Source: Luteibacter mycovicinus (GTDB taxonomy: Bacteria > Pseudomonadota > Gammaproteobacteria > Xanthomonadales > Rhodanobacteraceae). From it: a DNA stretch of 64,000 nt. The translations under genes and the position numbers were made by a program. This document shows, in pieces, positions 9,091-61,011 of this stretch. The stretch covers positions 3,156,001-3,220,000 of the forward strand of contig NZ_JQNL01000001.1 of NCBI RefSeq assembly GCF_000745235.1, given 5' to 3'. Positions within the stretch are counted from its first letter, which is position 1. Each line of letters begins with the position of its first letter. Below the pieces are notes generated by a model. The model was not told where the DNA came from. It ran no database searches and saw nothing but the letters and a program-made list of their open reading frames with translations.

Positions 9091-10137
9091 ATGGATGTCT
9101 CCTTTCATCGCCAATTGGCTGACACCCTTCGATCCAGCCTCGGTGTTGAAGTAAGAATGACGGCATGGTCAGGTGCGGCGTCGCTTCCCGTCGTACTAAG
9201 AAAGGAAACGGAATTCGCAGAAGCGAATATCCGCGGGCTCGCGGTCGTCTTCATGCGGTCCGTCGGTGATGACCTTCGTTCCTCTGGTGATGTCCTTTCG
9301 CGACTTGCTCGAGTTGCCGAAGCCGCGGGTGCGCCGGTTGTATATGTCGCCAACGCTTTGCCCGCCCACCGCCGTTCGGCGTTAATCGCCCAGGGCGTCC
9401 CGTTTGTCGTTCCGGGGCGATATGTGCATCTCCCGGATGTGGGCGTCGACTGGCGAAAACACGCCCGACAAAAACGTGCGGCGGCGGCTCATGCTTCCGG
9501 GCGCGGGATGCTGGAGGCTAGCGCGCAGGCGCTCCTCATCGCGGGTCTCCTGAATACACCCGAGAAATCGTTCTCCCCTTACGACAGGGGGCTTGAACTC
9601 GGCTACACGCGCATGACGGTCGGGCGGGCCTGTCGTTCCTTGATCGAAGCGGGTTTGTTCGAGCCACAACGGCGGGGTACGTCGCTCTTGCTCACTTCCG
9701 TGGGGAGCTCTCGCGACGTATGGTTTCGAGCGATGCCTTTGTTAAAAAGTCCGGTGCGCGCTTCGCTCACTGTAGCGGGGCATGTGTCGTTAGAGTCGTC
9801 CCTTCCGTGGTCGGGGGAGTCCGCACTTGCGGAATGGTCGTCGCTGAATCCCCCTCGGATTCCCGTCCGCGCGCTGGGGCCCGCCGGGCAGAAAGAGCTA
9901 TTCGCGGCGTATCGCGTTACGAACTTCCGTAGCCTGTCTGCACGCCTCAATCACGACGACATAGAGAAGGCCGATGCGTGGAGGCTGGAATCATGGGCCT
10001 ATCCCGCCACGGCGCGTGCTGCCGGTGGGCGAGCCGATCCGCTCTCTGTATGGTTGAGTTTGCGTGACGCGGCGGTTGATGACCCACGCCTCGAAAGCGC
10101 CCTCGAACAACTCATGGAGCGGTTGGATTGGCTATGA
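9091..10137 (+). CDS. Winged-helix protein, putative antitoxin/regulator partner of a nucleotidyltransferase
   Basis: 348 residues. The N-terminal 100 residues are an alpha/beta region (AEANIRGLAVVFMRSVGDDL, GAPVVYVANALPAHRR). A central segment, about residues 148-205 (SAQALLIAGLLNTPEKSFSP, YTRMTVGRACRSLIEAGLFE, RGTSLLLTSVG), is a clear winged helix-turn-helix of the MarR/AbiEi type. The C-terminal third is unassigned. The gene overlaps the nucleotidyltransferase gene by four bases (ATGA), so translation is coupled, and twin palindromes lie at its promoter. By analogy with AbiEi/AbiEii (type IV toxin-antitoxin) it would repress the operon and oppose its partner. That role is inferred from layout and fold, not from a recognised antitoxin signature. 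Confidence 0.6.
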   Translation: MDVSFHRQLADTLRSSLGVEVRMTAWSGAASLPVVLRKETEFAEANIRGLAVVFMRSVGDDLRSSGDVLSRLARVAEAAGAPVVYVANALPAHRRSALIAQGVPFVVPGRYVHLPDVGVDWRKHARQKRAAAAHASGRGMLEASAQALLIAGLLNTPEKSFSPYDRGLELGYTRMTVGRACRSLIEAGLFEPQRRGTSLLLTSVGSSRDVWFRAMPLLKSPVRASLTVAGHVSLESSLPWSGESALAEWSSLNPPRIPVRALGPAGQKELFAAYRVTNFRSLSARLNHDDIEKADAWRLESWAYPATARAAGGRADPLSVWLSLRDAAVDDPRLESALEQLMERLDWL

Positions 10138-10889
10138 AAGGACTCGATGTTTTCAGGGAGCACTTCCGATCATTCGATGACCAGTACGTACTCATCGGCG
10201 GGTCCGCGGCCATGCTGGAAATGGCGCAAGTGGGTGAATCTTTCCGGGCAACACACGACCTTGACCTCGTCCTTCTCATAGAAGCGCGGACTGAAGGTTT
10301 CGGAGCTGCACTCATGGAGTTCGTTGAACGGGCTGGCTACAAAAGGCGAGAGGTCGGCGGTCGACCGCAGTTCTACCGTTTCAGTGATCCATGTGCAGGC
10401 GACGCCCCGGCTATGCTGGAGATCTTCTCCCGCGCGCCGGACGGCCTGGTTCTTCACCACGGTCAGCGTGCCATCCCGGTCACCTTGGGCGGCGATCTCA
10501 AAAGTTTGTCCGGGTTGCTCCTCGACGATGCCTACTACAACGTGATTCGGGATGCGGCGCGGACCAAGGAGGGTCTGAGCTGGTTGGATGCCAGGGGGCT
10601 GATCGTGCTGAAGGCAAAGGCCTGGCTCGATCTCAGGGAAAGAAGGGCTGCGGATGCGTCCTCGGTCGACTCGAAAAGAGTACGAAAGCACCTTTTCGAC
10701 GTGCTGGCGCTATCCCAGGTCATCCCGGCAAACGCTTCGATCGATCTGCCCGAATCAGTTCGTAAGGACGTGCGGCGGTTCCTGCAGGCGGCCCTTATTG
10801 AGCCGCCGACCAGAGATTTCGGCGAACCCCTCGAGGTGATGCTGGCCCGTATCGGCCGACTTTGCGGCCTCCAGGTTGCGTTAGCCTAG
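10134..10889 (+). CDS. AbiEii-like nucleotidyltransferase, putative toxin
   Basis: 251 residues from ATG 10134, overlapping the stop of the previous gene; TTG 10128 is an alternative start. DNA polymerase-beta-type nucleotidyltransferase: VLIGGSAAM (Gly22-Gly23-Ser24) followed by ATHDLDLVL with metal-binding Asp42 and Asp44, then a strand-helix region with RPQFYRFSD and LEIFSR, and a conserved Lys in the helix LIVLKAKAWLDLRERR. This is the layout of AbiEii and MenA/MenT-type toxins, which modify tRNA or other RNA ends with NTPs. The enzyme class is well supported. Toxin activity depends on its pairing with the winged-helix gene. The pair lies just outside the island, directly downstream of dusA. 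Confidence 0.7.
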   Translation: MKGLDVFREHFRSFDDQYVLIGGSAAMLEMAQVGESFRATHDLDLVLLIEARTEGFGAALMEFVERAGYKRREVGGRPQFYRFSDPCAGDAPAMLEIFSRAPDGLVLHHGQRAIPVTLGGDLKSLSGLLLDDAYYNVIRDAARTKEGLSWLDARGLIVLKAKAWLDLRERRAADASSVDSKRVRKHLFDVLALSQVIPANASIDLPESVRKDVRRFLQAALIEPPTRDFGEPLEVMLARIGRLCGLQVALA

Positions 10890-44041: not shown

Positions 44042-44074
44042 GTCGCGTTCTTGTCTGTAAAGCTGGCGACCCAG

Positions 44075-44116
44075 GGGCCCGGGTCCGGTATCGCACCGGA
44101 CCCGGGCCCGTTCGTT
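44075..44116 (+). terminator. Strong hairpin after tkt
   Basis: GGGCCCGGGTCCGGT, loop ATCGC, ACCGGACCCGGGCCC: a perfect 15-bp stem, followed by GTTCGTTT. Likely terminator separating tkt from ugd. Confidence 0.75.
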
Positions 44117-44137
44117 TGAGGAGGCCCTAGAGTAAAC

Positions 44138-45310
44138 ATGACTATGAAGATTGCTGTTGTCGGCACAGGTTATGTCGGACTGTCGAATGGCGTTCTGCTT
44201 TCGAAGATCGCCGAAGTCGTCGCGCTGGATATCGTCGAGAGCAAGGTGAAGATGCTCAACGAGCGCCGCTCGCCGATCGTGGACGCCGAACTGGTCTCGG
44301 CTCTGGCCAGTGACGGACTGAATTTCCGTGCAACGCTGGATCCACGGGATGCCTACGAAAATGCCTCGTTCGTCATCATCGCGACACCGACCGACTACGA
44401 CCCCCAGACCAACTATTTCAATACCGGCTCCATCGAGACGGTGATCGGGCAGATTCTGGAGATCAACCCGAAGGCGACGATGATCATCAAGTCGACCATT
44501 CCGGTGGGTTACACGCGCAAGCTGCGCGAACGTTTCGGCGTCGAGAACATCATCTTCTCGCCGGAGTTCCTGCGCGAAGGCAAGGCGTTGTACGACAACC
44601 TGCACCCATCGCGAATCATTGTGGGTGATCACTCGCAGGAGGCGAAGGCCTTTGCCGAGCTTCTGCAGCGTGGCGCGGAGAAAAAGGACATCCCCGTTCT
44701 CTTTACCGATTCGACCGAGGCTGAGGCGATCAAGCTGTTCGCCAATACCTATCTCGCCATGCGCGTTTCGTACTTCAACGAACTCGATACGTACGCGGTG
44801 ACGCACGGCCTGGACAGCCGACACATCATTGAAGGCATCTGCCTGGATCCTCGCATCGGCGCCGGCTATAACAATCCATCGTTCGGCTATGGCGGCTACT
44901 GCCTGCCCAAGGATACCAAGCAGCTGCTGGCCAACTATCAGAGCGTGCCGCAGACACTGATCAAGGCCATCGTCGAGTCGAACACGACGCGTAAGGACTT
45001 TATCGCTGACGATATTCTGCGGCGAAAGCCGAAGGTGGTGGGTATCTATCGCCTGATCATGAAGAGCGGATCGGATAATTTCCGCTCGTCGAGCATCCAG
45101 GGGATCATGAAGCGCATCAAGGCCAAGGGCGTGGAAGTCATCGTGTATGAGCCCGTACTCGAGTCGGAAGAGTTCTTCCATTCCCGAGTCGTCAACGATT
45201 TGCCGAAGTTCAAGAAGGAAGCTGATGTGATCATCAGTAACCGGATGGCTGAGGCGCTTTCCGATGTGGCGGATAAGGTCTATACGCGCGATTTGTTTGG
45301 CGATAATTGA
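44138..45310 (+). CDS. ugd: UDP-glucose 6-dehydrogenase
   Basis: 390 residues; M-T-M start, so ATG 44144 ([20 protein letters not shown]) may be the true one. Oxidises UDP-glucose twice to UDP-glucuronate with NAD. Motifs: GTGYVGLS (NAD), [61 protein letters not shown] and the catalytic Cys in [14 protein letters not shown]. It is the short (about 390-residue) E. coli type used for capsule, LPS or aminoarabinose precursors. First gene of the surface-glycan region; ends at a terminator, so it is its own unit. Confidence 0.95.
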
Positions 45311-45421
45311 GGTTGGGGATCGGGCGCTTTCGCGCCCGGTGATCCTGCAGCCGCAGTCCTGTCGCCACGCGGTGACAAGCTTCGTTAAGCTTCACGCGAC
45401 AGAGCCGGCAACGCTGTTAAA

Positions 45422-45446
45422 AAAGGCCCCAAAGGGGCCTTTCTCG
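45422..45446 (+). terminator. Intrinsic terminator after ugd
   Basis: AAAGGCCCC, loop AAA, GGGGCCTTT, then CTCGTTT. Situated 112 bp after ugd; the intervening bases hold nothing recognisable. Confidence 0.85.
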
Positions 45447-45639
45447 TTTATCGGCCTTGATGAAGTGGTTCGTGCAGCTTTGCCCCGCAAGTATGGGGAT
45501 CGCCAATGCAATGCGGACCATTTCCGCCGCGTCGGGTTGCGCGGTCGTATTCCCGGGCAGCCCACACTGGCTTTACGTGATGCTGCCGCCAATGGCTGGT
45601 GCCCGGCCCTCTTGTTCTGGACGGGACTTTTTCTGGTGC

Positions 45640-45906
45640 AACAACTATCGCTTGCCCGTGTTCGGTGACGATGAAGGTGCGATCGCGCCCGTTGCTAGCA
45701 GTCCATCACACCGCTCGGCCCGCCGCGTCGTAAAGGACGAAGTTGCCATCGCGTTGCATGATCGCCTGTACTGCGCCACGGCCATGCGTGTTTGTAGACC
45801 AGATTGCTCGCCACGCGCCGTCTGTTCAGTAAACGACGAAATTTCCGTCACTCTGCATGATGGCGACATAGCGCCCGTCTTTAGAGTGCATACTTTCTCT
45901 GGCCAT
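45640..45906 (-). pseudogene. Bulb-type (mannose-binding) lectin relic
   Basis: A single minus-strand frame from ATG 45906 reads MARESMHSKDGRYVAIMQSD GNFVVY-stop-TDGAWRAIWSTNTHGRGAVQ AIMQRDGNFVLYDAAGRAV-stop-WTASNGRDRTFIV. QSDGNFVVY and QRDGNFVLY are two copies of the B-lectin sugar motif QxDxNxVxY. The stops are TGA at 45826-45828 and 45706-45708, in frame with each other, so the lectin sequence is otherwise continuous. The start may overlap the end of the GT2 relic upstream. Bacterial B-lectins can be bacteriocins (lectin-like pyocins) or adhesins; which applies here is unknown. Confidence 0.75.
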
Positions 45907-46385
45907 CAAGCTCTCACCTGGCACCGGGAGAGCATGTCGTTGAAGGTACGGTCGACGATCCAGCTGGTGAGGTTTGTGGGTGCCCAGTTGCCGAAGCGAT
46001 GCCCGCTGCGGTGCGAGCGTTTTCGTCGGTGACACGTGCGCCGGCCACCAGGTCGAGCCACTGAGCGCGGAGACGACGGACAAGCTCCCAGGCGGCATCC
46101 GCGTCGTAAGTCGGATCGCTGTCCATCATGATGTAAACGTCCGCATCGATAAGGGCGAACATGCGGCGCACGCCGTTTCCCTTGCCTTGCTAGCGCTTGT
46201 GGAACACCTCTGTCGCTGTCCGATGGGCGACCTCGGCCGTGCCGTCCGTCGAGTTGTTGTCGAAATATGGTGATCTGAGCCTGCGGAAGGCTCTTGCGGA
46301 AACCCTAGGCGACGGCAGGGATCGCCAAGGCCTCGTTGAAGCAGGGGATCAGGACCGCGACGAGGGGTGGGCGGCTTCCATTGGG
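45906..46385 (-). pseudogene. Family 2 glycosyltransferase relic
   Basis: Pieces of a dolichol-phosphate-mannose-synthase-like GT2 follow each other on the minus strand: LVAVLIPCFNEALAIPAVA, a TAG, GFRKSLPQAQI, a frameshift, FDNNSTDGTAEVAHRT, VFHKR, a TAG, QGKGNGVRRMFALIDADVYI MMDSDPTYDADAAWELV, a further shift and HRFGNWAPTNLTSWIVDRTF NDMLSRCQVRA-stop at 45906. DSDPTYD is the DxD-type motif; NDMLSRCQV corresponds to the DMLSGYR block. At least two stops and two shifts show it is dead. The C-terminal membrane part is missing. Confidence 0.8.
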
Positions 46386-46703
46386 ACGAACTCCGTTCCG
46401 CGGGGGCAGGCACGATGGGACGTTCACCGGGGCGGAATGCCCACGCCGGACGGGCTGAAGGGCGCGCCCACCAATGCGGCACCTTCATTTTTTTTGCCTT
46501 CTCCGGGGTCTCCCCTTACCATGCATGACGCGCCACGCTGGCATGTCAAGGGATGTGCTGCCTCGCGGTCGCAGGCGGCGAGGTGACGCCAGCGTCCGCA
46601 ATTGGATTCACTTGCGTGAGTGCAAACACGAATGTCGCCAACGGGACGTCATCCTGGGGCAATCACCACTGATTGAGACTGATCGCATGCCTGAGGATGG
46701 TTT
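46386..46703. other. Gene-free stretch before the transketolase pair
   Basis: No credible gene. It should contain the promoter of the 46704-53317 operon. A CTTGCG then spaced TCGCCA pattern is too weak to call a promoter. The GT2 relic fades out at the left edge. Confidence 0.4.
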
Positions 46704-47483
46704 ATGAAGCAGGCACTGGACGAACAACGCCTCGCGGTCATCCGTGCCCGCCTCCTCAGGATGCATTTCGAAAGCGGCGTTGGACACATCGGTGGCAACC
46801 TTTCGGCCGTCGATGCCTTGGCCTTGCTCTTTAATGAGCGCATGGGCGAGCACGATCGCTTCCTGCTTTCGAAGGGCCACTCCGCCGGTGCCCTGTACGT
46901 TGCATTATGGAGCGCCGGAAAACTCTCGGATGAGGACCTGCGCACATTTCATCGTGACGAGACCCTCCTCGCGGGCCATCCGCCGGCAAGTGGTATCGCC
47001 GACATTCTGTTCGCGACGGGCAGCCTCGGTCACGGGTTGTCACTGGCCTCGGGGACGGCGCTGGCACTGAAACTCCAGGGGCTTCCCGGCCACACGTATT
47101 GCCTCATGTCCGATGGCGAATGGCAGGAGGGATCGACCTGGGAAGCGTTGATTTTCGCCGCCCATCGGCGCATGAGTGGCCTTACCGTGCTCGTCGATCA
47201 CAACGGTCTGCAGGGGTTCGGCCGCACGCACGACGTGGCGTCCATGTTCCCGCTGTCCGAGCGGCTTAAGGGCTTCGATGTCGATCTGCATCTGGTTTCC
47301 GGCCATGACCTGGACCAGATGCGCGGTGCTATCGATGCGGCTACCGATCGCCTGAAGGTCATTGTTCTCGAGACCATCAAAGGCAAAGGCGTCTCTTTCA
47401 TGGAAAATCGCATGGAATGGCACTACCTGCCGCTGAAGGAGCCGGATTACCAGCAGGCTCTCGTCGAATTGGGCCAGGCATGA
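46704..47483 (+). CDS. Split transketolase, N-terminal (thiamine diphosphate) subunit
   Basis: 259 residues. Covers the PP domain of transketolase: MHFESGVGHIGGNLSAVDAL, FLLSKGHSAGALYVALW, FATGSLGHGLSLASGTAL, MSDGEWQEGSTWEALIFAAH (GDG-like site as SDGEWQEGS) and VDHNGLQGFG. The partner domain is encoded by the next gene, whose ATG overlaps this TGA. Such half-size pairs occur in secondary and sugar biosynthesis clusters, where they move two-carbon units to make unusual sugars. Distinct from the full-length tkt 2.7 kb upstream. The substrate is not evident. Confidence 0.88.
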   Translation: MKQALDEQRLAVIRARLLRMHFESGVGHIGGNLSAVDALALLFNERMGEHDRFLLSKGHSAGALYVALWSAGKLSDEDLRTFHRDETLLAGHPPASGIADILFATGSLGHGLSLASGTALALKLQGLPGHTYCLMSDGEWQEGSTWEALIFAAHRRMSGLTVLVDHNGLQGFGRTHDVASMFPLSERLKGFDVDLHLVSGHDLDQMRGAIDAATDRLKVIVLETIKGKGVSFMENRMEWHYLPLKEPDYQQALVELGQA

Positions 47484-48385
47484 GGACGCAACTCTGCGAT
47501 GCGCTTGTGGCGCGCGCGAAAGATCCCCGCATGGTGTTCCTGACGGGTGATCTGGGCTTTATGGCGCTCGAAGCGCTGCAGACCGCCATGGGCGATCGAT
47601 TTATCAATGCGGGCGTCGCTGAGCAGAATATGATTTCCGTGGCGGCCGCGATGGCCCGGCAGGGTATGAGCGCCTGGGTCTACAGCATCGCTCCTTTTTG
47701 CTATGCCCGGCCTTTCGAACAGATTCGCAACGATGTCGCCTTTCATGGGCTTCCCGTCCGTCTCATTGGCAACGGTGGCGGCTACGGCTACGGCGTGATG
47801 GGTCCGACGCACCACGCCATCGAGGACTACGGCGTCCTCCTCACTTTGCCGAATATGCGAGTGTATGCGCCGGTCTTCGATCAGGACGTTGCCGCGGTGA
47901 TCGACAAGGCGGCGGGCGATATCAGGGCCGCCTATATTCGTCTGGGCCGGGGCGAGCCGCCCGTCGGCTTCGAGGTGCCCGCATACGCGCCGTGGCGTGA
48001 ACTGGTGAGCGGTGCGGCGATGCCGGTGATCGTGGTTGGCCCGCTTGCCGGGACGTATATCGATAGCCTGCAGCGTCTTCCCTTTGAAACGAGGCCGAGC
48101 TTGTGGGCAGTTTCCGAACTGCCGTTGGCGTTGAACCCGCTTCCGCAAGACCTTCTCGATAAAATGATCGCGGCCAAGAAAGTAGTCGTTGCCGAAGAGC
48201 ACGTCGCTCATGGCGGCTTTGCCTCGGACCTTTCCATGTATTTGCTAGGTCGGGGGAAGGGCGTTGCGCTCGTCCATCTCCATGCAAAAGCACACCACTA
48301 TTCCCGTTACGGATCCCAGGCCTACCTGAGGGCGCAATCGGGACTTGATCCGCAGACCTTACTTGGCGCCGTGGGTGCCGGCTGA
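47480..48385 (+). CDS. Split transketolase, C-terminal (pyrimidine) subunit
   Basis: 301 residues from ATG 47480, overlapping the previous stop (ATGA). Contains the Pyr domain (VFLTGDLGFMALEALQTAMG, RFINAGVAEQNMISVAAAMA RQG with the cofactor-activating Glu, FCYARPFEQIRNDVAFHGLP VRLIGNGGG, GYGVMGPTHHAIEDYGVL) and the C-terminal domain. Together with the previous gene it forms one active enzyme. Followed after 2 bp by the epimerase-GT2 fusion, which ties it to sugar activation rather than central metabolism. Confidence 0.88.
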   Translation: MRTQLCDALVARAKDPRMVFLTGDLGFMALEALQTAMGDRFINAGVAEQNMISVAAAMARQGMSAWVYSIAPFCYARPFEQIRNDVAFHGLPVRLIGNGGGYGYGVMGPTHHAIEDYGVLLTLPNMRVYAPVFDQDVAAVIDKAAGDIRAAYIRLGRGEPPVGFEVPAYAPWRELVSGAAMPVIVVGPLAGTYIDSLQRLPFETRPSLWAVSELPLALNPLPQDLLDKMIAAKKVVVAEEHVAHGGFASDLSMYLLGRGKGVALVHLHAKAHHYSRYGSQAYLRAQSGLDPQTLLGAVGAG

Positions 48386-48387
48386 CC

Positions 48388-50379
48388 ATGAACGACCTTA
48401 ATCAACATATCCGCGCGCTTCACGGCCCCATCCTCGTGACGGGCAGCGCAGGCTTCGTGGGCGCCAATCTTTTTCGAAAGATTCTTGCCCTTCGTCCGGA
48501 CGTTTACGCTGTCGTTCAGAGCTCGACCAACTGGCGCCTTGAGGGCGTCGGCGAAGCGAATCTGGTCGAGGCCAACGTGAATGATGCCGCAGCGTTGAGA
48601 CACCTGGTCGAGGAGATTTGCCCACGAACGGTGTTTGACTGCGTGGCTTATGGCGCCTATTCGTTCGAGCAAGATCCGCGACTGATTTACGAAACGAATT
48701 TCCAGTCCATCGTCAGCTTGACGACGATGCTGGCGGATCGTTCCATCAGTGCGTATATCCATGCTGGCAGTTCATCGGAATACGGCAGTAACAGCGCAGC
48801 CCCGCAGGAAGACGCGCGGTGCGAGCCCAATAGCCACTATGCCGTATCAAAAGTCGCTGCGGCCGAGTATCTCTCCTACCTGGGGAAGGAGCGCGCGTTT
48901 CCCTGCGTCAATCTTCGTCTCTACTCGGTTTACGGGCCTCTCGAAGACGGTTCGCGGCTCATCCCGAATCTCATCTACAAGGCGTTGCAGGGTTCGCTTC
49001 CGCCCTTCGTTGACCCGGCGACTTCACGGGATTTCGTTCACGTTGACGACGTTTGTGCGGCTTTCATTTACGCTGCGGCGAAGATGAATCCCGATCTCTA
49101 CGGCGAGAGCCTCAATATCGGGTCGGGACGTTGTACGACGATCGAATCGCTCGCCGCCATCACGCGTGACGTCTTCGGTGTGACGGAGGAGCCTCGCTTT
49201 GGTGCCATGGAGGGGCGATCGTGGGATCTCGCCGACTGGTTCTCCGATCCGACGAAAGCTCACGACATGCTGGGTTGGCAGGCTCAGATATCTCTCGAGG
49301 ATGGCCTTCGGTCAACTTCCGGGTGGGTTGCTACGCTGAGCGAGGATGAACTTGCGCAGCGGTCGAAGAAGTCGACTAACCGAAAGCGTCGCAGTGTTTC
49401 GGCCATCATCGCCTGTTACAAGGATGAGCCGGCCATTCCAGTCATGTACCGGCGCCTGAAAGACACGTTCTCGCGTCTTGGCATCGATCACGAGATTATT
49501 TTCGTCAACGACTGCAGTCCGGACGATAGCGCTGCGGTCATTCAAGCCATTTCAGCTAGTGACCCGTGCGTTATCGGTATCACGCATTCCCGCAATTTCG
49601 GCTCGCAGATGGCCTTCCGCAGCGGGATGGAGCTGGCATCGAAGGATGCGGTTGTGTTGCTTGACGGCGACCTTCAGGACCCGCCCGAACTGATCGAGGC
49701 CTTCTACGCGAAGTGGGAAGAAGGCTTCGACGTCGTTTACGGTCGTCGCGTGCAACGCGAGATGCCCTGGCATTGGGGGCTGTTGTACAAGGCCTTCTAT
49801 CGTGTGTTCGCGGCATTCAGTTACGTTCAGATCCCTCTCGATGCGGGCGACTTCTCGCTGATCGATCGCAAGGTCATGCAATGGCTGCTCGATTGCCCGG
49901 AGCGTGACTTGTTCATGCGAGGTTTGAGGGCTTATGTCGGCTTTCGGCAGACCGGTGTCGACTATGTTCGACCAGAGCGGATGTTCGGCCATACGACCAA
50001 CACGCTTACCAAGAACATCGACTGGGCGAAGAAAGGCATTTTTTCGTTCAGCAACGTGCCACTCACGCTCCTGACGACCGCCGGACTTGGCCTGCTTGCG
50101 CTGTCAGTCGTGGCGGCAATCGTCGTTGCAACCTTGCGTATCGTCTGGCCGGATATCGCGCCTCGTGGTGCGACGACTATGCTCATCGCGGTACTGATGT
50201 TCGGTTCCCTGAATCTGTTCGGGATCGGCCTGGTCGGTGAGTACATCGGTAAGATCATGCTGGAGGTCAAGCAACGGCCTCGGCTTATCCGGGCTGCGCT
50301 GATCCGCCATGGCGTCATAACGCCACAGGTTGCGAGGCCCTCCCGCACGCGATCCTTCGATGAAAGAAGCTCCGGATAA
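48388..50379 (+). CDS. Fusion of NAD-dependent sugar epimerase/dehydratase and GtrB-like GT2
   Basis: 663 residues in one frame. Residues 1-320: extended SDR, GPILVTGSAGFVGANLFRKI (GxxGxxG), HAGSSSEYGSNSAAPQED and the catalytic Tyr-Lys in NSHYAVSKVAAAEYL, with VDDVCAAFIYAA and LNIGSGRCTTIESLA. Residues about 335-640: GT2, SAIIACYKDEPAIPVMYRRL, FVNDCSPDDSA, HSRNFGSQMAFRSGM and VLLDGDLQDPPELIEAFY (DxD), then two membrane helices (about 570-592 and 603-625) as in GtrB/DPM1-like proteins that load a lipid carrier. The fusion couples sugar modification to transfer onto a polyprenyl phosphate. No internal ribosome-binding site is seen in the linker. Confidence 0.88.
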   Translation: MNDLNQHIRALHGPILVTGSAGFVGANLFRKILALRPDVYAVVQSSTNWRLEGVGEANLVEANVNDAAALRHLVEEICPRTVFDCVAYGAYSFEQDPRLIYETNFQSIVSLTTMLADRSISAYIHAGSSSEYGSNSAAPQEDARCEPNSHYAVSKVAAAEYLSYLGKERAFPCVNLRLYSVYGPLEDGSRLIPNLIYKALQGSLPPFVDPATSRDFVHVDDVCAAFIYAAAKMNPDLYGESLNIGSGRCTTIESLAAITRDVFGVTEEPRFGAMEGRSWDLADWFSDPTKAHDMLGWQAQISLEDGLRSTSGWVATLSEDELAQRSKKSTNRKRRSVSAIIACYKDEPAIPVMYRRLKDTFSRLGIDHEIIFVNDCSPDDSAAVIQAISASDPCVIGITHSRNFGSQMAFRSGMELASKDAVVLLDGDLQDPPELIEAFYAKWEEGFDVVYGRRVQREMPWHWGLLYKAFYRVFAAFSYVQIPLDAGDFSLIDRKVMQWLLDCPERDLFMRGLRAYVGFRQTGVDYVRPERMFGHTTNTLTKNIDWAKKGIFSFSNVPLTLLTTAGLGLLALSVVAAIVVATLRIVWPDIAPRGATTMLIAVLMFGSLNLFGIGLVGEYIGKIMLEVKQRPRLIRAALIRHGVITPQVARPSRTRSFDERSSG

Positions 50380-50383
50380 ATTC

Positions 50384-51346
50384 ATGCAGAGCCAGACGAC
50401 AGAAAATTCGCAGGGACCTGGCGACCGTGTCGAGCGCGTATGCCCGGTATGCGGCAGTCCTTCCGCCAGTGCGCGACGCTTTCTTGACGAGCGGATCGAT
50501 CCATCGCGGCTCAACGAATACAGTTTCGCGTCGCGCAAAGAGCCGGAATTCTTTAACTATCGTATGGTCCAGTGCGTGACGTGCGACGTCGTGTTCGTGG
50601 ACCGGCCGCCATCGCAGCAAGCGCTTCATCAGGCCTATCACGTCGCGGAGTACGACAGCTCGGAAGAAGCCGAGGACGCAGCGGCTGCTTACCTTCGCGA
50701 ACTGGAGCCCATCCTCCAGCGGATCGACTTGGGAGCCGCGCTGGAAATCGGTACAGGCACCGGTATCCTGCTCGAGGGGCTGGCGACGCGCGGCTTCTCG
50801 CAGGTAGCGGGCGTCGAGCCTTCGACGGCGGCTATCAAGGCGGCGCCCGCCCACCGACGGCCCTGGATCCGCGAAGGGATCTTTCAGGAAGACGACTATC
50901 AGCCGGAATCGTTCGATCTCATTTGTTGCTTCATGACACTCGAGCACGTCAAAGAGCCGCGCGAGATCGCGGAATCCGTTCATCGGCTGCTAAAGCCGGG
51001 CGGCGCGTTTGTCACCGTGACCCACGATTACCGAAGTGCCGTCAATCGCTTGCTCGGACGTCGGTCCCCGATCATCGATGTCGAACACATGCAGCTGTTT
51101 TCCCCGCAGAGCATCGTGGAGTTGTTCCAGCGTTCGGGTTACCAGCAGGTGGTGGCGCGTCCGTTTGCGAACCGCTACGCGCTCTCGTACTGGGTGCGTC
51201 TTATGCCCCTCGGCGCGACGCTGAAGCGCGTGACTTCACGACTGCTCGCGAGTCTCGGTTTGGCCAGTAATAAGGTTTCGATCAACGTAGGGAATATGGT
51301 GGCGGTCGGCTACCGACAAGTGGACGCCGTTCGGCACGACTCGTGA
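50384..51346 (+). CDS. SAM-dependent methyltransferase with N-terminal zinc ribbon
   Basis: 320 residues from ATG 50384, 5 bases after the previous stop; ATG 50360 is an alternative. An N-terminal four-Cys ribbon (CPVCGSPSASARR and VQCVTCDVVFVDRPPS) precedes a class I methyltransferase: ALEIGTGTGILLEGLATRGF (SAM motif I), VAGVEPS, DLICCFMTLEHVKEPREIAE and LLKPGGAFVTVTHD. Zinc-ribbon methyltransferases of this form often modify sugars or lipid-linked glycans (C- or O-methylation). Position in the operon points to a sugar substrate. Confidence 0.82.
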   Translation: MQSQTTENSQGPGDRVERVCPVCGSPSASARRFLDERIDPSRLNEYSFASRKEPEFFNYRMVQCVTCDVVFVDRPPSQQALHQAYHVAEYDSSEEAEDAAAAYLRELEPILQRIDLGAALEIGTGTGILLEGLATRGFSQVAGVEPSTAAIKAAPAHRRPWIREGIFQEDDYQPESFDLICCFMTLEHVKEPREIAESVHRLLKPGGAFVTVTHDYRSAVNRLLGRRSPIIDVEHMQLFSPQSIVELFQRSGYQQVVARPFANRYALSYWVRLMPLGATLKRVTSRLLASLGLASNKVSINVGNMVAVGYRQVDAVRHDS

Positions 51347-51717
51347 GGCTGGACGTCCGTTTCATCAAGTTTCTGATGGTTGGGGCACTGAACACGCTGT
51401 TCGGCCTGGGTATCTATGCACTGCTGATTCGCGCCGGAGTGCCCATCTGGGGTGCTTTGATTGGCGGTAATGTCGCCGGAATTGTTTTCAACTTCTTCAC
51501 GACGGGGCACCTCATCTTTTCGACGGTCGCCGTCTCCAGGGCGCCACGTTTCGTCGTGGCGTATCTGGCGTGCTACGCCATCAACTACCTCGCGCTCGCG
51601 GGATTCGCTTGGCTACATCTGGGTCCCATCGAAAGTCAGGTCGTGTTGACGCCCTTCATGGCGGTCGTGTCCTATGTTCTGATGTCCCGATACGTTTTCC
51701 GCTCAGATCAGCCATAA
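51343..51717 (+). CDS. GtrA-family membrane protein
   Basis: 124 residues from GTG 51343, overlapping the methyltransferase stop. Four membrane helices with family landmarks: RFIKFLMVGALNTLFGLGIY, GNVAGIVFNFFTTGHLIFS (the N-F/Y cluster) and FMAVVSYVLMSRYVF at the end. GtrA-like proteins work with GtrB-type transferases, probably by flipping the undecaprenyl-linked sugar. Its partner here is the GT2 half of the fusion at 48388. Confidence 0.9.
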   Translation: MRLDVRFIKFLMVGALNTLFGLGIYALLIRAGVPIWGALIGGNVAGIVFNFFTTGHLIFSTVAVSRAPRFVVAYLACYAINYLALAGFAWLHLGPIESQVVLTPFMAVVSYVLMSRYVFRSDQP

Positions 51718-51748
51718 AGCTATCGTTCGCCCGCTTCCGGAATATGCG

Positions 51749-53317
51749 ATGCCACTTTCCCTGAATATTTCATCCGAAGCCAAAAGGGCGCTCGTCGTCG
51801 GGCTACTCTTTGTGTTCGTGTTTTTTGCATGGGAGGGTCGGCAGGGCTTCAGTCTCTGGGACGAAGGTTACCTGTGGTATGGCATCCAGCGCGTCATGCA
51901 CGGAGAGGTGCCGATCCGTGACTTCCAGGCTTACGACCCTGGACGCTACTACTGGAGCGCCCTGATTATGTGGGTGAGCGGTAGCAGTGGTATCTCAGCG
52001 GTGCGCTATACCCTTGTGATCCTTCAGGCTGCCGCGCTCGTGCCGGTATTGGCCTGGCTCGGTGCGAGCAGCAATAAGCGGGGGTCCGGAACCTATCTCT
52101 TCATTTGCGCATTGACGCTCATGGTCTGGATGGTGCCTCGCCACAAGCTCTTCGACATTAGTATCTCGATAGGTCTGGTTTGCGTCCTCGCTGCCTGGAC
52201 CCTTCGTCCGACGACGCGTCGCTATTTTGGAGCGGGCGCCTTCGTGGGCTTCGTGGCGTACTTCGGGCGTAATCACGGCATCTATGGTGCCCTCGCCAGC
52301 ATCGGGATCCTGGTGTACCTGGCGGTTCGATGCGAAGACTGGCATGCCTGGTGGAGAGGCATCGCATCGTTCGTTGTGGGTGGGTTTGTCGGCTATCTGC
52401 CGATGTTCGTCACCATGCTTCTCGCACCGGGATTCACGTCGGCGCTTATTGAAAGCATCAAGTTCCTGTTCGACGTCAAATCGACCAATCTCCCCCTTCC
52501 TATCCCATGGCCTTGGCTAGCTCGGTTCGGCACCGTCGGGCTGGTGGATGCATTCCGCGACTTGACGCTGGGGATGTTTTTCCTTTCGACGCTGGCCTTC
52601 GGTGCGTCGGCCATCATCTATGTGCTCTTTTGTCGCTGGAGGCATCGGGCCGTGTCTCCGCTGCTGGTGGCATGCGCATTTGCCGCCATCCCATACGCCC
52701 ATTACGCATTCTCGCGCGCCGATGCGGGCCATCTCGCACAAGGGATCTTTCCGACGCTGATCGGCATCCTGACGTTGGCTGGCACCAGATCCGCGCTGTC
52801 GCGTTATTTCATAGCGGTTCCGCTGTGTGTAGCGAGCATCTTCGCCATGCTGCCGCTGCATCCAGGGTGGCAGTGCATGGGTGCGAGACATTGCGCACTG
52901 ATGAATATTGACGGAGACAGCCTTCGGGTTGATGCCGTCGCCGAGAAGGATGTCTTGCTTCTGCAAAAACTGAAGCGTGACTTCGGCTCCACGGGGCGGC
53001 CTTTCTTTGTCGCGCCCCTGTTGCCCGGCGCATATGCATTGCTGGGCGCGCGCTCACCGACCTGGGAAATATACACGGCGTGGAATCGCAGTGATGCGTT
53101 CCAGCAGGATGAAATCGCCAGGCTCAAACAGGCCAGGCCGGCATTCGTGGTCGTGTATGACCTTCCCCTGGACGGGCGTGAAGAGCTTAGGTACAAAAAT
53201 ACCCATCCGCTGATGGATCAGTACATCAAAGACAACTTCGAGCGCCTCGAGGGGTATTCGGTCAACCCGGCTCATGAGGTCTACCGTTCTCGGGACGCCG
53301 CTAGAGGATCACGCTGA
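51749..53317 (+). CDS. Polytopic GT39/ArnT-like glycosyltransferase
   Basis: 522 residues, about ten membrane helices. The first periplasmic loop reads FSLWDEGYLWYGIQRVMHGE VPIRDFQAYDPGRYYW: the acidic Asp-Glu pair followed by a conserved Y-PG-YYW segment is characteristic of C-type fold transferases that use polyprenyl-phosphate sugars. A C-terminal soluble part (VEKDVLLLQKL, RPAFVVVYDLPLDG) lies outside. In a gtrA/gtrB setting this is the third component that transfers the sugar to LPS, another glycan or protein. Last gene of the run; acceptor unknown. Confidence 0.8.
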   Translation: MPLSLNISSEAKRALVVGLLFVFVFFAWEGRQGFSLWDEGYLWYGIQRVMHGEVPIRDFQAYDPGRYYWSALIMWVSGSSGISAVRYTLVILQAAALVPVLAWLGASSNKRGSGTYLFICALTLMVWMVPRHKLFDISISIGLVCVLAAWTLRPTTRRYFGAGAFVGFVAYFGRNHGIYGALASIGILVYLAVRCEDWHAWWRGIASFVVGGFVGYLPMFVTMLLAPGFTSALIESIKFLFDVKSTNLPLPIPWPWLARFGTVGLVDAFRDLTLGMFFLSTLAFGASAIIYVLFCRWRHRAVSPLLVACAFAAIPYAHYAFSRADAGHLAQGIFPTLIGILTLAGTRSALSRYFIAVPLCVASIFAMLPLHPGWQCMGARHCALMNIDGDSLRVDAVAEKDVLLLQKLKRDFGSTGRPFFVAPLLPGAYALLGARSPTWEIYTAWNRSDAFQQDEIARLKQARPAFVVVYDLPLDGREELRYKNTHPLMDQYIKDNFERLEGYSVNPAHEVYRSRDAARGSR

Positions 53318-53338
53318 ATTTATGCCGCGGCCAGGCAG

Positions 53339-54103
53339 TCAGCGACGAGTTGCCTTCACGAAGTACCCCAAGGGATCTTCCTTGGCACCTAGTCCGAAGA
53401 GTTCGGCCACATGGGCGGCCACGACGAAGCCAGCGGTAAGCGGCAGCGTCACGATGAACAGGGGGAGTGTCCATAGCGATCTTGCGATCGATCGCGTCGG
53501 GGCGAGTCTGAGCGAGAGCACGACCAGCTTGCTCGCAATGGCGGTGATGTCGGTGCCTCGCTCTGCGATCTCCACGGCGTGGAAGCCATTCGCCTCGAAA
53601 AGCCTGGTCAGGCGCTCACGCGTGAAACGGTGGAAATCGTAGGGAACATGATGGCGGCGCGCTGACCAGGGAACGGTGACGAGTAGCGTCGCGTCGTGCC
53701 TGAGGCATCGTGCGACTTCGCGAACGACGACATCGGGATCCTCGACGTGTTCGAGGACTTCGATGCAAATGGCGCTGTCGAAAGACGCGTCAGGAAAGGG
53801 GATAGTTCGTCCATCGTAATACGTGATCCCCTCGCGTCCCTGTTTCATGCCGAATTCCTCGGCATTCCCGATATCTATGCCCTGGTAACGAGCGGTGGGC
53901 GGCAGCCATTCGCGCCAGGGTGATTCACCCGCGCCGACGTCCAGCACATTGCCGTCCAGTCGGGCCATCGCCGGGCGCAGCGGCCGCACAATCGTCAGCA
54001 GTTGCAGGTCGACCATGCACCTGACCCTGAACATGAAGGGATTTGATGAGGGCTTCTTTACCGAAATGGGTTTGAATGCCTCTGTCTGCATGGCCTGCGT
54101 CAC
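53339..54103 (-). CDS. Class I SAM-dependent methyltransferase
   Basis: 254 residues; ATG 54091 is an alternative start. Motif I DGNVLDVGAGESPWREWLP, GIDIGNAEEFG, SFDSAICIEVLEHVEDPDVV and LRHDATLLVTVPWSARRHHV PYDFHRFT, typical of the Methyltransf_11 group in polysaccharide loci. A C-terminal hydrophobic helix (SLWTLPLFIVTLPLTAGFVV AAHVA) suggests membrane association. Reads toward the polytopic transferase gene and follows a broken membrane gene on the same strand. Substrate unknown. Confidence 0.8.
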   Translation of the reverse strand: MTQAMQTEAFKPISVKKPSSNPFMFRVRCMVDLQLLTIVRPLRPAMARLDGNVLDVGAGESPWREWLPPTARYQGIDIGNAEEFGMKQGREGITYYDGRTIPFPDASFDSAICIEVLEHVEDPDVVVREVARCLRHDATLLVTVPWSARRHHVPYDFHRFTRERLTRLFEANGFHAVEIAERGTDITAIASKLVVLSLRLAPTRSIARSLWTLPLFIVTLPLTAGFVVAAHVAELFGLGAKEDPLGYFVKATRR

Positions 54104-54135
54104 TGTCTGGATGGCTTAAGGATATGAAGCTGGGG

Positions 54136-55261
54136 TTACGGTACTTTCGATAGTGCGGGGCGCGGAGCGTAGCGGATAGCGTCGTAGCTACCGAAATCCA
54201 GTGTCCCGTCGCGGCGATATACGGCATCGTAGTCCGTTAGCCATGCCTGTGCATCGTCGCCTTTGCGGATGAGTACCCATCCCGGCGCATTCAGTCTGCG
54301 CGCGACGCGGTCGAGGAACTTACGTCGCAAGTCCGCCGGAAGATAGAGGTAGTTTTCCGGCCCATGGTAGGCGCTCCAGGGCAACCCTGGGGTAGCGCCT
54401 TCAAGGTTCAGTGATGGGTCAAGGACGGTCACAAATTCGTGGCTTGCCGCCCAGATGGTTCGCATTCCGTGCGCCGCGTCACTGCCGGCAGTAGCCGGCG
54501 GATTGGGTCCCGCCATGGTCTGGTTGCTTGCCGCGCCCGCCGGATTCATGTAGCTGAAAGCCTGTATGGCGCGTTTCGGATGGAAGTCCAGAAGATTTCC
54601 ATCCGCCGTCACGCTTGCCCAGTTATGCCAGTTAGCCAACATTGGGTATACGAGGATGGCCGCGAGGAGACCGTTCGTCGTGACTCTCACCATAGGGGCG
54701 TGGTTTTCATGCCGAAGCGTGATCAGGAGCAGAACGAAAAAGGCACAGACATTGAGCAGGTTGTTGTCGTGACTCCGACCGAGGAAGTACGACGTGACGC
54801 CGAAGGCGGCAAGAAGGAGAATCACGATGCGATGGGTCTGCGCGTCGTCCGGCGCGCGACGCAGTCTTTCGTACAGCGCCATCGCTCCCAGTGTCCCGGC
54901 CAGGGCGAAGAACCAGATGATGCCGAACGGGCGCACCGGCACCGGTCCCGGAGGATATAAGACGTACGCAAAGTAGGCGTCGGCGGTTGGAAAGATTCCG
55001 TAGCCAAGGCGATACGCGCCTATAAAGCCAATGCAGGCCACCAGGAGCCAGCTTCCCAGCGTGACATTCGCCCACACGAAACTGCGCAGGCGGTCTTTCT
55101 TCTCGGCGCCGACGCAGCGAGCCCAGACATAATAAGGCCATTATACCGCGCTGACCTGAAACGCACTTTCGGGGGACCAAAGGCAGGGAGGTCGCCATCA
55201 AGCCCAGGAGAGCGGCTCCCAGACAGAGGTAGATGGCCACTGTTAGAGGCTTGTTGTCCAT
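54136..55261 (-). pseudogene. Polytopic membrane protein of the glycan locus, frameshifted
   Basis: From ATG 55261 the frame reads MDNKPLTVAIYLCLGAALLG LMATSLPLV (one helix) and then shifts. In the other frame WPYYVWARCVGAEKKDRLRS FVWANVTLGSWLLVACIGFI GAY continues through several helices (LVRP-free stretch FGIIWFFALAGTLGAMALYE, VILLLAAFGVTSYF, FFVLLLITLRH) to a soluble end (NYLYLPADLRRKFLDRVARR LNAPGWVLIRKGDD). A TAA in the second frame near 55140 marks the damaged region. The overall layout (helices, then a periplasmic tail) resembles the GT39-like protein at 51749. The N-terminal half of the ancestor seems to be missing as well. Confidence 0.7.
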
Positions 55262-55382
55262 GTCGTTGCGTCGAGACCCTTGTCAATGTGGCGAAATGGG
55301 GCCAGCGACTCGCATGTGCCCCTGGGCGACCGAGTCGGCAGCCATCATAGCGTGCCGCACCGCACTCCCGTGCCCGGGGGGA

Positions 55383-57299
55383 CTACCTCGGTGCCAGAAG
55401 TTCGCCAAGACGATCAGGGGCGCTGCCCAGACGTGCCAAGTGAGCATATTGCAGCGGTCCCGATGCGTGGAGCGTGGTGCTCATCGTTTCGCCGTCGACA
55501 CTCCACGTCAGTTTGAGAGGAGCTGGCGACCTATTTCGCAAGAGCGCTGCTAACGATTCAAAGGAATACGGTTTGCCATTGATTGCATCGATTTTGATGC
55601 CGGGGGCCAGTCCCGCCTTGAACGCAGGACCTTCCCACGCCACGCTGCGAATCACGCCGCCCTTGCCGATAGTAAATCCGATGGCGCTGGAGAAATCGCT
55701 GGCGCCGCTGTCCAACTCGTTTGCGCGGCTGTAGTCGCTTGGCGTTCCATCGAAGACGAGTCGATAGCCCTCACGCTCGATGCCATTGAGGACAATGGTG
55801 GGGTCGTGGGTATCCAGCCGCTTGCGCAGGAAGCCTGCCCAGTCCAAGGGTGCTACACGGTTGAGCGCAGCGCACACATCGGCAAACGCGTAGGTTCTCG
55901 TTGACAGATCGCCTTCGGCTCCACCGGCAAAGAAGTCCCGCGCAAAGTCATCGATACCTTTCACCTCATGGGTCTGCTCACGAATCTCCGCATCGACGGC
56001 CAGCCAGAGGAATACACCCTCACCGTAGTAATCCTCACGCCGTTGCCAATCACGCCACGACGTGGAGCGGCCGCCGGCGGTAATGATCGCATCGTTGGTA
56101 CTGTCCTGCAGCGACTTCCAGGTGCGTCCCTTCTGAGCGAGCACCTGCGCCGCACCCACCGCCAGCGCATCCAGCGTTTCCTGTTTCGTCCGCAGTCCGG
56201 AACGCGCCGCCAGCACGCGCCCCCAGAACTCGGTCTGGCCCTCGTACACCCACAGTAGGCTGCCCCGTGCGGGCGTGTTGAAGTCAGCTGTCCAAAGATC
56301 GGCAGGCTGGCGATAACGCCCGTTCCACGAATGGACGAACTCGTGCGCCAGCAGGTCGGCGTTGATGAGGTCGCGCTCGTCCCCGGCAAAATAGTCCGGC
56401 GGCAAGGTGTCGGTGCTGGACTGTGCCTGCTCGCTGCCGCCGGGACCGGGTAGCGCGTTGTCCAGCGCCAGCAGGAAATCGTAGTGTCGGTAATGCCGCT
56501 TCGGGAACACCTTGCCTGCCTGCTGCACCATCGCCCGAAGCGCGTCGAGTTGGGCCGATTTGATGGCGATCCTGCGCTCGTCATCGGCAAACACATTCAG
56601 GGTGACCGGCGCTTCGCCTTTGCGCGCTAGCGCATAACGCCCGACGTGGCGCGACGCGTAGACGGGCGAGTCGACCAGTGTCTCCAGTGAGGTGGTGCGA
56701 AACCCTGAGGCATCGCCCGGGTTGCTCTCCAGCGCCGTGGCGGAGGCGAAGCCATTTGGCAAGGTAACTCGTGCGCTTACAGGGATATTGCGCGTGAACC
56801 ACCCTGCCGGGTAAAGCACAACGTTTTGCCAGGGTACCGTGACCGTGGACGCGGTCATGGCAACGGCGCCCTGGCGAAGACTGAAGGGCGAGAGGTATTG
56901 GAACGACACGTCGAGCGCTTTCGCGTCGGCCGGAACGTCCACATGGAAGGCGAACATGTTGACGGTATCGCGTTCCCATTTCAGGGGCCGGCCGTTCGAT
57001 ACGACGGTCAAGCCTGTGAGGCCCGCTACCGACGCCGTCGGGGCATGGCTTGCGGTTTCCCATTGCGGGTACAGGAGGACCATGGGTCCCGCTGCCTGTA
57101 CCGGGATCGACTCCCGGACGCGGTAGATGCGCTGGCTCAGGTTGGAGGCGTCGACATCCAGCGTTATCTGCCCGTTGAAAGGCACGTCGCGTGCGACAGG
57201 AATCGGCGGGGGAAGGGGTGCCGGCTGCGGGCCTTCGGAAGCGAGGCTTGCCTGAGCGAAGAAGAAGGACAGAACGACGGCGGAAGCAACGACGCGCAT
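55383..57299 (-). CDS. M61-family glycyl aminopeptidase with PDZ domain
   Basis: 638 residues with a signal peptide (MRVVASAVVLSFFFAQASLA). An N-terminal beta domain precedes the zinc motif LLAHEFVHSWNGRYRQPADL (HExxH) with the third-ligand Glu in LLWVYEGQTEFWGRVLAARS. The C-terminal PDZ region (GFTIGKGGVIRSVAWEGPAF KAGLAPGIKIDAINGKPY) is part of the family layout. Exported enzyme that removes N-terminal glycine or other small residues; physiological target unknown. Divergent or convergent partners do not suggest a pathway. Confidence 0.9.
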   Translation of the reverse strand: MRVVASAVVLSFFFAQASLASEGPQPAPLPPPIPVARDVPFNGQITLDVDASNLSQRIYRVRESIPVQAAGPMVLLYPQWETASHAPTASVAGLTGLTVVSNGRPLKWERDTVNMFAFHVDVPADAKALDVSFQYLSPFSLRQGAVAMTASTVTVPWQNVVLYPAGWFTRNIPVSARVTLPNGFASATALESNPGDASGFRTTSLETLVDSPVYASRHVGRYALARKGEAPVTLNVFADDERRIAIKSAQLDALRAMVQQAGKVFPKRHYRHYDFLLALDNALPGPGGSEQAQSSTDTLPPDYFAGDERDLINADLLAHEFVHSWNGRYRQPADLWTADFNTPARGSLLWVYEGQTEFWGRVLAARSGLRTKQETLDALAVGAAQVLAQKGRTWKSLQDSTNDAIITAGGRSTSWRDWQRREDYYGEGVFLWLAVDAEIREQTHEVKGIDDFARDFFAGGAEGDLSTRTYAFADVCAALNRVAPLDWAGFLRKRLDTHDPTIVLNGIEREGYRLVFDGTPSDYSRANELDSGASDFSSAIGFTIGKGGVIRSVAWEGPAFKAGLAPGIKIDAINGKPYSFESLAALLRNRSPAPLKLTWSVDGETMSTTLHASGPLQYAHLARLGSAPDRLGELLAPR

Positions 57300-57415
57300 G
57301 CGGTGCGATACCTTGGCGGGAGGGAGTGGTGCCAGCTGGGTGCCCCCACGATAAGCGCATCGTCGCGGGGCACCCAGTGACCATCGGCATGGCCGCCCGG
57401 TCGTCCATTCAGGCC

Positions 57416-60195: not shown

Positions 60196-61011
60196 TTAAG
60201 CCGCCATCCTCTCAAACTCGGCTGGCGGGCGGTAGTCGAGCGCGGAGTGCAGGCGCTCGTGGTTGTAATAGCGAACCAGGTAGTCGATCGCGTCTTGTGA
60301 TGCCAGAGCTCGGGTCGGGAAGGTTTCCTCGCCGAACCACTCCTGTTTAAGGCTTCGGAAGACGCGTTCGACGACGGCGTTGTCCCAGCAGTTCCCCTTT
60401 CGGCTCATGCTTTGAACGATGCCGTGCCGGGCCAGATGTTGGGTGTAGCGATCGGAGGTGTACGAGGCGCCCTGGTCGGTGTGGATGACTAACCCGGGAG
60501 CCGGCTGGCGCAAGCCGATGGCCAGTTCGTTGGCCTTGATGGCCAGTCGTGAATCGGGCGTGTGGCTTGTGGCCCAGCCGACGATTCGCCGGGAGTACAG
60601 ATCGACCACGATGGCCAGATAGAGGAAGCCCTGGCCCGTTCGGATGAAGGTGATGTCGCCGGCCCAGGTCTGGTTGGGACGCGCCGGATCGAACTGTCGG
60701 TTGACGATATTTTCGGCCGGTGCAGGTTTCGTGTTGCGTCTGGCGTAATGAAACCGCTTCTTCCTCAGTCGAATGTCCAGCCGGCGCATCAGTGTCGCCG
60801 CCCGTTCGCGACCCACACGAAAGCCGTGCCGGCACAGGCTGCGCGCAAGGCGGCGTGCGCCATAGCTGCGGCGACTATCCCGATGAATGGCCAGAGCGGT
60901 CTGGGCAAGCCCTTCGTCGATGGCGGGAGCCGCCTTGACGGGGGCGTAGTGCCGGCTCCGGGGCCAGCCAAGAATCGCGTAGACCTGTCGTATCGACAAA
61001 TCCCCTCTCAC
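60196..61011 (-). CDS. IS3-family transposase OrfB
   Basis: 271 residues from GTG 61011, overlapping the OrfA stop. Helix-turn-helix-like start (LSIRQVYAILGWPRSRHY), then HRDSRRSYGARRLARSLCRH G, and the DDE catalytic core: Asp in NQTWAGDITFIRT, Asp in LVIHTDQGASYTS and Glu in CWDNAVVERVFRSLKQEWF, ending with YNHERLHSALDYRPPAEFE. All catalytic residues are present. It is normally made as an OrfAB fusion by -1 frameshifting. Confidence 0.92.
   Translation of the reverse strand: MRGDLSIRQVYAILGWPRSRHYAPVKAAPAIDEGLAQTALAIHRDSRRSYGARRLARSLCRHGFRVGRERAATLMRRLDIRLRKKRFHYARRNTKPAPAENIVNRQFDPARPNQTWAGDITFIRTGQGFLYLAIVVDLYSRRIVGWATSHTPDSRLAIKANELAIGLRQPAPGLVIHTDQGASYTSDRYTQHLARHGIVQSMSRKGNCWDNAVVERVFRSLKQEWFGEETFPTRALASQDAIDYLVRYYNHERLHSALDYRPPAEFERMAA

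Follow-up and report, generated by a model that had tools for sequence, protein, structure and literature searches.

A split transketolase in a gene cassette of very distantly related bacteria, with a probable role in making an unusual and possibly branched surface sugar

The two halves of a split transketolase encoded in Luteibacter mycovicinus (TK-N and TK-C) belong, together with an SDR and a polyprenyl-phosphate GT2 glycosyltransferase, to a conserved unit in which a methyltransferase, a GtrA protein and a GT-C protein are frequent partners. Judging from the sequences, the probable product of this cassette, which occurs in bacteria that are only very distantly related, is an unusual surface sugar that may be branched. 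We put at roughly 55% the probability that it is a mobile, Gtr-type surface-glycan cassette with the transketolase pair as its carbon-joining enzyme, taking the whole route proposed below.

The cassette and its conservation

The window analysed here is a stretch of 64,000 nucleotides of Luteibacter mycovicinus, whose genome comprises 4,625,266 bases in one contig. It contains the following features:

46704..47483, + strand: TK-N, the ThDP-binding half of the split transketolase (PF00456, 88.8 bits)
47480..48385, + strand: TK-C, the pyrimidine half of the split transketolase, with its ATG at 47480 (PF02779, 80.6 bits)
48388..50379, + strand: SDR fused to a polyprenyl-phosphate GT2 (PF01370 and PF00535)
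50330..51346 (ORF as listed), + strand: zinc-ribbon class I methyltransferase (PF13489, 95.5 bits)
51343..51717, + strand: GtrA, small membrane protein of the flippase family (PF04138, 56.2 bits; cut-off 26.1)
51749..53317, + strand: membrane protein of GT-C fold (predicted fold, best match Pmt4)
53339..54103, - strand: second methyltransferase (MT2), convergent, a frequent cassette companion (PF13489, 53.3 bits)
54136..55077, - strand: probable C-terminal relic (313 aa) of a larger membrane protein (full family 619-695 aa)

From TK-N to position 53317, six genes run in a single direction with short overlaps or gaps; the transketolase halves overlap by 4 bases and the SDR-GT2 gene starts 2 bases further on. 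The coordinates and layout in the original prediction (a split pair at 46704..48385 with an ATGA overlap, 2 bp before an epimerase-GT2 fusion) were thus confirmed, as was its placing of a full-length tkt near the pair. This tkt ends 2.7 kb upstream of TK-N, with ugd between. The nearest solved chains are 6yak for TK-N (the N half of the Carboxydothermus split transketolase, 184 bits) and 6yaj for TK-C (99.9 bits). In the fusion protein, the SDR spans residues 1 to about 320 and the GT2 about 335-640, including two C-terminal TM segments. The best solved relative of the GT2 domain is sll0501 (197.5 bits), and it scores 204.6 bits against PgfS and 136.6 bits against ArnC, both under the equivalog cut-offs. 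The true start of the methyltransferase probably lies after the SDR-GT2 stop, and a CxxC...CxxC pattern occurs in 47 of 53 members of its family, the window copy among them. The alignment of the 54136..55077 product with the larger proteins in L045, L053, L065, L078 and L077 is confined to their last ~300 residues, which is why we consider it a probable relic. As a separate observation, this reverse-strand stretch (54136-55077) is a possible remnant of an exchanged acceptor-specific transferase.

A scan with an alignment of TK-C against 84,980 named species genomes returned 258 relatives. We examined the best 80 of these, and profiles run on all ORFs of these 80 loci gave the counts for each family. 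TK-C was present in 80 of them, TK-N in 79, the SDR in 78 and the GT2 in 75, with SDR and GT2 as one gene in 74. Five loci are incomplete at contig ends (L036, L047, L091, L092 and L095); among judgeable loci, the SDR lies downstream of TK-C in 78 of 79 and is fused to the GT2 in 74 of 76. The true exceptions are L059, with an unfused SDR, and L110, with a GT2 and no SDR. The SDR is not always the next gene, as two methyltransferases stand between in L054. The halves overlap by 4 bases in 65 of 79 loci, by 1 base in 10 and otherwise in 4. Pairwise distances among TK-N, TK-C, SDR and GT2 correlate at 0.81-0.89 (72 rows, uncorrected for species relatedness). The other partners are less constant: the methyltransferase was found in 52 of 80 loci, GtrA in 28 and the MT2 family in 34.

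The 80 record titles name Proteobacteria of several classes, as well as MAGs and genomes labelled Mycobacterium, Verrucomicrobia, Lentisphaerae, Eremiobacterota, Nitrospinales, Myxococcales, Chthonomonadaceae and others, among which contamination of MAGs is possible. The closest named TK-C is that of Dyella humicola (77% identity). Genome samples gave a similar picture. Of the 369 genomes in the class sample, 3 carried TK-C (E 1e-50); these were also the 3 with SDR-GT2 (E 1e-90), and the two were neighbours in each. In the phylum sample (398 genomes), 6 genomes carried TK-C and 5 of those 6 SDR-GT2, again always adjacent; the sixth, G444, seemingly holds the L110 locus. Both samples include the window's own genome, 4 of the 6 phylum matches come from one genus, and only the best first-look candidates per genome were scored. 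These counts suggest that the cassette is rare (about 1%) and its parts nearly inseparable. The pair had been predicted to be dedicated to a glycan operon, and both the locus survey and the co-occurrence across genomes bear this out; lack of conservation with the cluster, which would have spoken against that claim, was not found.

Split transketolases are common elsewhere in sugar metabolism, so we also considered a catabolic pair that lies beside glycan genes by chance. Given an SDR downstream in nearly every judgeable locus and the nearly perfect co-occurrence, this explanation was rejected and we regard it as extremely improbable. One scan of viral contigs confirmed no TK-C relatives, and plasmid records held one at E 1e-40, in Methylobacterium aquaticum (55%). 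Among open-licence papers, judged from their listings, we recognised none on the present cassette, which is a weak absence.

Active site, acceptor pocket and supply of keto sugar

We sought to assess which reaction the pair may catalyse from residues aligned to Escherichia coli transketolase, whose numbering is used here (81 rows for TK-C and 78 for TK-N, with L005 and L006 left out). The catalytic Glu411 and H473 equivalents are present in 81 of 81 TK-C rows. TK-N retains H26, H100 and H261 in all 78 rows and H66 in 77, along with the Mg/ThDP residues D155 and N185 (78/78); its GDG motif reads SDG in 78 of 78, Ser replacing the first Gly. The halves therefore carry the catalytic Glu and His set and the Mg/ThDP residues of the transketolase family. 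Catalytic residues are likewise kept in the SDR (NAD glycines, Tyr and Lys, 79/79) and in the GT2 (DxD, 76/76), so all three enzymes look active.

The acceptor pocket is changed. We take the housekeeping site for sugar-phosphate acceptors to be H461, D469, R91, S385 and R358; in nearly all cassette transketolases these residues are replaced or fall in unaligned stretches. H461 is replaced by Gly in 81 of 81 rows, D469 by Met (78) or Gln (3), and R91 by His in 77 of 78; the columns for S385 and R358 are empty, as these loops do not align. F434 is Ile throughout (81/81), while R520 is kept in 75 of 81. These changes bear on another reading of the pair, namely that it supplies an ordinary linear sugar phosphate (pentose or heptulose) as a glycan precursor. 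Such a role would suit its nearest solved chains, those of the Carboxydothermus hydrogenoformans split transketolase (6yak, 6yaj), with which it shares the two-chain layout. That enzyme keeps the H461 and D469 equivalents, which the cassette proteins do not. Against a role in ordinary precursor supply, H461 is Gly in every row and the R358 and S385 columns are empty, the families common to at least 10 loci include no recognised kinase, isomerase or nucleotidyltransferase, and a full-length tkt already stands 2.7 kb upstream. We thus think it rather unlikely that the pair makes an ordinary sugar phosphate.

In E. coli transketolase, D469 forms bonds to H26 and R91, and aldehyde acceptance is altered in variants at D469, H461 and R520 (PMC3657141). 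The double variant H100L + D469T is described as used to let the enzyme take pyruvate (PMC10787763, in part). H100 is kept in the cassette transketolases, which favours a ketol donor, and the residue pattern as a whole suggests that such a donor is combined with an unusual acceptor. In a further sample, all 14 readable long frames that carry a DXS-like motif (assigned by eye) have Asp at site 469, whereas D469 was absent from 11 of the 12 other rows, which are not DXS-like (the count left out the gapped L147, L148 and L150, and L144, a long frame of another kind). This change therefore marks a broad set of atypical transketolases and not the cassette alone. In L170 (G224, 4785-6182), part of TK-N and TK-C read through as one frame, which suggests that atypical transketolases may not all be split.

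Another possibility is DXS- or YerE-like chemistry, in which a pyruvate donor would yield an acetyl (later hydroxyethyl) branch, as in yersiniose. The decarboxylase-type ThDP family is recognised by TPP_enzyme Pfam domains; in the cassette pair, only Transketolase_N, DXP_synthase_N and Transket_pyr matched at E 0.001. TK-C does score on DXS models, with 64 bits against 75 for the best transketolase model, and in the YerE reaction, as described in a 2025 review, a CDP keto sugar receives activated acetaldehyde (PMC12247030). Against this, TK-N scores 200 bits on the transketolase model and 32 on the DXS model, and the ketol-binding histidines (H26, H66, H100, H261 and H473) are kept. A pyruvate donor consequently appears improbable to us.

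Evidence on the acceptor comes from the relatives of the cassette. In a tree of 40 rows, the 18 sampled cassette TK-Cs form one clade (100/100), and L135, L136 and L137 appear as its sister with moderate support (93/78, with the bootstrap unsettled). In the neighbourhood of L135 (L166), the genes run in the order glucose-1-phosphate cytidylyltransferase (TIGR02623, 460 bits; cut-off 300), CDP-glucose 4,6-dehydratase (TIGR02622, 499 bits; cut-off 278), two other genes, SDR, TK-N, TK-C, GT2, one gene and GtrA. The neighbourhood of L136 (L167) has the same two CDP-glucose genes (446 and 479 bits), followed by TK-N, TK-C, SDR, GtrA and GT2, and GtrA was matched by Pfam in both. DegT aminotransferases and an SDR lie in L168, the neighbourhood of L137. 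Among the 80 loci, cassette SDRs make up the eight top-scoring matches to the L166 SDR (93-108 bits), and the L166 and L167 transketolase pairs are 31-38% identical to the window halves. CDP-glucose genes were seen in only 2 of the 6 relative neighbourhoods looked at, both of them among the three nearest sampled relatives. CDP-glucose 4,6-dehydratase makes CDP-4-keto-6-deoxyglucose. By comparison, the acceptor of YerE, described in the same review, is a CDP-3,6-dideoxy-4-keto sugar (PMC12247030), a close relative of that product. We view the CDP-glucose neighbours of L135 and L136 as the best evidence for a ketone acceptor.

These neighbours also bear on the idea that the transketolase lengthens a chain, adding the ketol to the aldehyde carbon of a nucleotide-linked or free aldose to give an octose-type surface sugar. 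Aldehydes are what ordinary transketolase chemistry uses, and a less polar residue at Asp469 made the E. coli enzyme better with propanal and aromatic aldehydes, as reported in parts of two studies (PMC3657141, PMC10787763). Two of the three nearest sampled relatives nonetheless stand beside a dehydratase whose product is a ketone, and the shared gene set contained no recognised enzyme for opening a sugar to its aldehyde. On this evidence, chain lengthening seems unlikely, if the strongest of the alternatives to the preferred route.

As the cassette itself is without a dehydratase, a keto acceptor is a guess. Among the chosen ORFs of the 80 loci, no CDP-sugar supply was found (best rfbF and rfbG matches 64.6 and 55.9 bits). 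Housekeeping 4-keto sugars could be at hand, with rmlB over the cut-off in 7 of 8 cassette genomes and gmd in 6 of 8; these genes do not discriminate cassette genomes from 14 control genomes, where rmlB was found in 11 and gmd in 6. The ketone may thus come either from the SDR acting on a common UDP-sugar or from a housekeeping 4-keto sugar, with the SDR acting later. We lean towards the latter, because the SDR is still present beside the dehydratase in L166 and L167.

The proposed route and known systems

We infer a two-carbon addition that leads to a branched or long-chain sugar, including its substrates and product, from the kept catalytic residues, the changed pocket and the 4-keto-sugar neighbours; the two-carbon chemistry is a well-motivated prediction. 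In the preferred route, a ketose phosphate or hydroxypyruvate would donate a ketol (glycolaldehyde) unit to the transketolase, whose altered acceptor pocket would accept the carbonyl of a nucleotide sugar. That nucleotide sugar could be a keto sugar made by the SDR from a common UDP-sugar, or an existing 4-keto sugar, for instance the RmlB product. The SDR would reduce the product or set its stereochemistry, the fused GT2 would load the branched or extended sugar onto undecaprenyl phosphate, and the methyltransferases would O-methylate it. GtrA would then flip the lipid-linked sugar, and the GT-C protein would attach it to a periplasmic glycan, possibly the O-antigen of an export locus ~26 kb downstream. 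A narrower version of this route is more tentative, and we would not bet on it: a horizontally moving, self-contained cassette that, in very different bacteria, makes an undescribed C-branched (hydroxyacetyl or dihydroxyethyl) nucleotide sugar by transketolase addition of a ketol to a keto sugar. A dehydratase would be dispensable in this version, since formation of the ketone, reduction of the branch or both would fall to the SDR that is fused to the lipid-carrier transferase, and the sugar would pass straight to undecaprenyl phosphate.

The later steps resemble three-component Gtr systems, defined in part of one source as a GT-A polyprenyl-phosphate transferase, a GtrA flippase and a GT-C transferase (PMC13390465). 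The corresponding cassette members are the GT2 with its two C-terminal TM segments, which by sequence is a likely polyprenyl-phosphate transferase; GtrA, present in the window and in a minority of the loci; and the GT-C-fold protein, a predicted component. Unlike Gtr systems, the cassette has its GtrB-like domain fused to an SDR, a split transketolase in front and added methyltransferases. The operon partners named in the original prediction held up for the SDR, the zinc-ribbon methyltransferase and GtrA. Its GT39-like protein did so by fold and not by sequence family: none of 32 aligned members of this membrane-protein family matches GT39 or another GT sequence family at E 0.1. The likeness to Pmt4 is one of predicted fold alone, only a few Z units above the ~14 that helical models reach without a clear relative. 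The protein encoded at 51749..53317 is accordingly a predicted, and not an established, transferase that would hand the lipid-linked sugar to a periplasmic acceptor. The predicted structure of a TM2-type alternative membrane protein was poor (pLDDT 53) and was left out of the analysis.

Several known or proposed systems resemble parts of this route. The premise that transketolase halves can build branched sugars rests, in the portions of the 2025 review consulted, on proposals only: ketone-accepting transketolases are described there as proposed, none tested in vitro, and 13 further candidates are all from Streptomycetes (PMC12247030). Described in the same portions are the miharamycin and amipurimycin pathways, which likewise have split transketolase genes and an oxidoreductase thought to make a keto sugar, with a hydroxyacetyl branch proposed (PMC12247030). 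Those are transketolases of secondary metabolism, unproven in vitro, whereas the cassette pair accompanies a lipid-carrier glycosyltransferase and is found in records from many phyla; the two were likened by description. The YerE pathways (yersiniose and erwiniose) rely on a ThDP enzyme that attaches a carbon chain to a CDP 4-keto sugar (PMC12247030), which recalls the two cassette-transketolase relatives beside CDP-glucose 4,6-dehydratase, but YerE is a decarboxylase-family enzyme using 2-keto acids and the cassette enzyme is of the two-gene transketolase family. The wps-2 exopolysaccharide cluster of Actinoplanes missouriensis (AMIS_56710, AMIS_56720) is also comparable by description, with split transketolase domains annotated in a surface polysaccharide cluster together with a methyltransferase; it differs in being of Wzx/Wzy type with aminotransferases, and the source, as consulted in part, names the transketolase as domains only (PMC13390465).

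Genomic setting and significance

A search of 22 other genomes of the genus found no close TK-C; the best same-genus match was a different split transketolase (32%). One same-genus genome (G019; L134, about 9128-10485) carries a different split pair, 33-34% identical to the window pair. GC content dips slightly, to 0.57-0.62 between 44 and 56 kb, compared with 0.60-0.68 in the flanking windows shown. The interval from tkt to HAD/pgk (44042-57400 in the window) is a variable slot in the five same-genus genomes examined. It holds only 434 bases between the tkt and HAD matches in G012, a transposase and an AT3 acyltransferase in G005, an AT3-SGNH protein in G010 and G019, and an AT3-SGNH protein with a 299-aa gene lacking a Pfam match in G021, so that AT3 acyltransferases occur in 4 of the 5. 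AT3 proteins are O-antigen acylators, and the slot therefore appears to gather genes for surface modification. Some 26 kb downstream of the GT-C gene lie two proteins of the kind found in O-antigen exporters, an ABC-2 membrane protein and an ATPase bearing a Wzt C-terminal domain; gmd and rmlB are close by.

The UDP-glucose dehydrogenase gene ugd (44138-45310) was considered as a cassette member and rejected, its family being found in 3 of 81 stretches (window counted); at E 1e-80 it occurs in 3 of 23 genomes of the genus, that of the window included. A terminator-like hairpin (45422-45442) lies between ugd and TK-N, weak evidence alone given 11 such sites in 10.2 kb against 8.7 expected. The reverse strand at 45454-45924 shares 62% identity across 157 residues with a 299-aa gene that neighbours tkt in another genome of the genus (L132:14812-15711); that gene has no Pfam match, and its DGNFVVY motif may be lectin-like. 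As no listed frame of 90 aa or more spans this stretch, it looks like a degraded relic. A few kb past the cassette, a transposase ORF occupies 60196-61011 on the reverse strand (integrase core PF00665, 100 bits). In G005, GST and pilU are directly adjacent, which may be compared with this transposase.

If the proposed route is correct, transketolase would be a third ThDP enzyme class among the known makers of branched surface sugars, and one joined to a Gtr lipid-carrier route. In its narrower, C-branched form, this would be the first transketolase shown with a ketone acceptor for a surface glycan. The pairs are also candidates for making alpha-functionalised tertiary alcohols, and the question of a ketone acceptor is directly testable. 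Should the route hold, a new sugar may be present in the glycans of at least 80 named loci and of another 178 C-half relatives.
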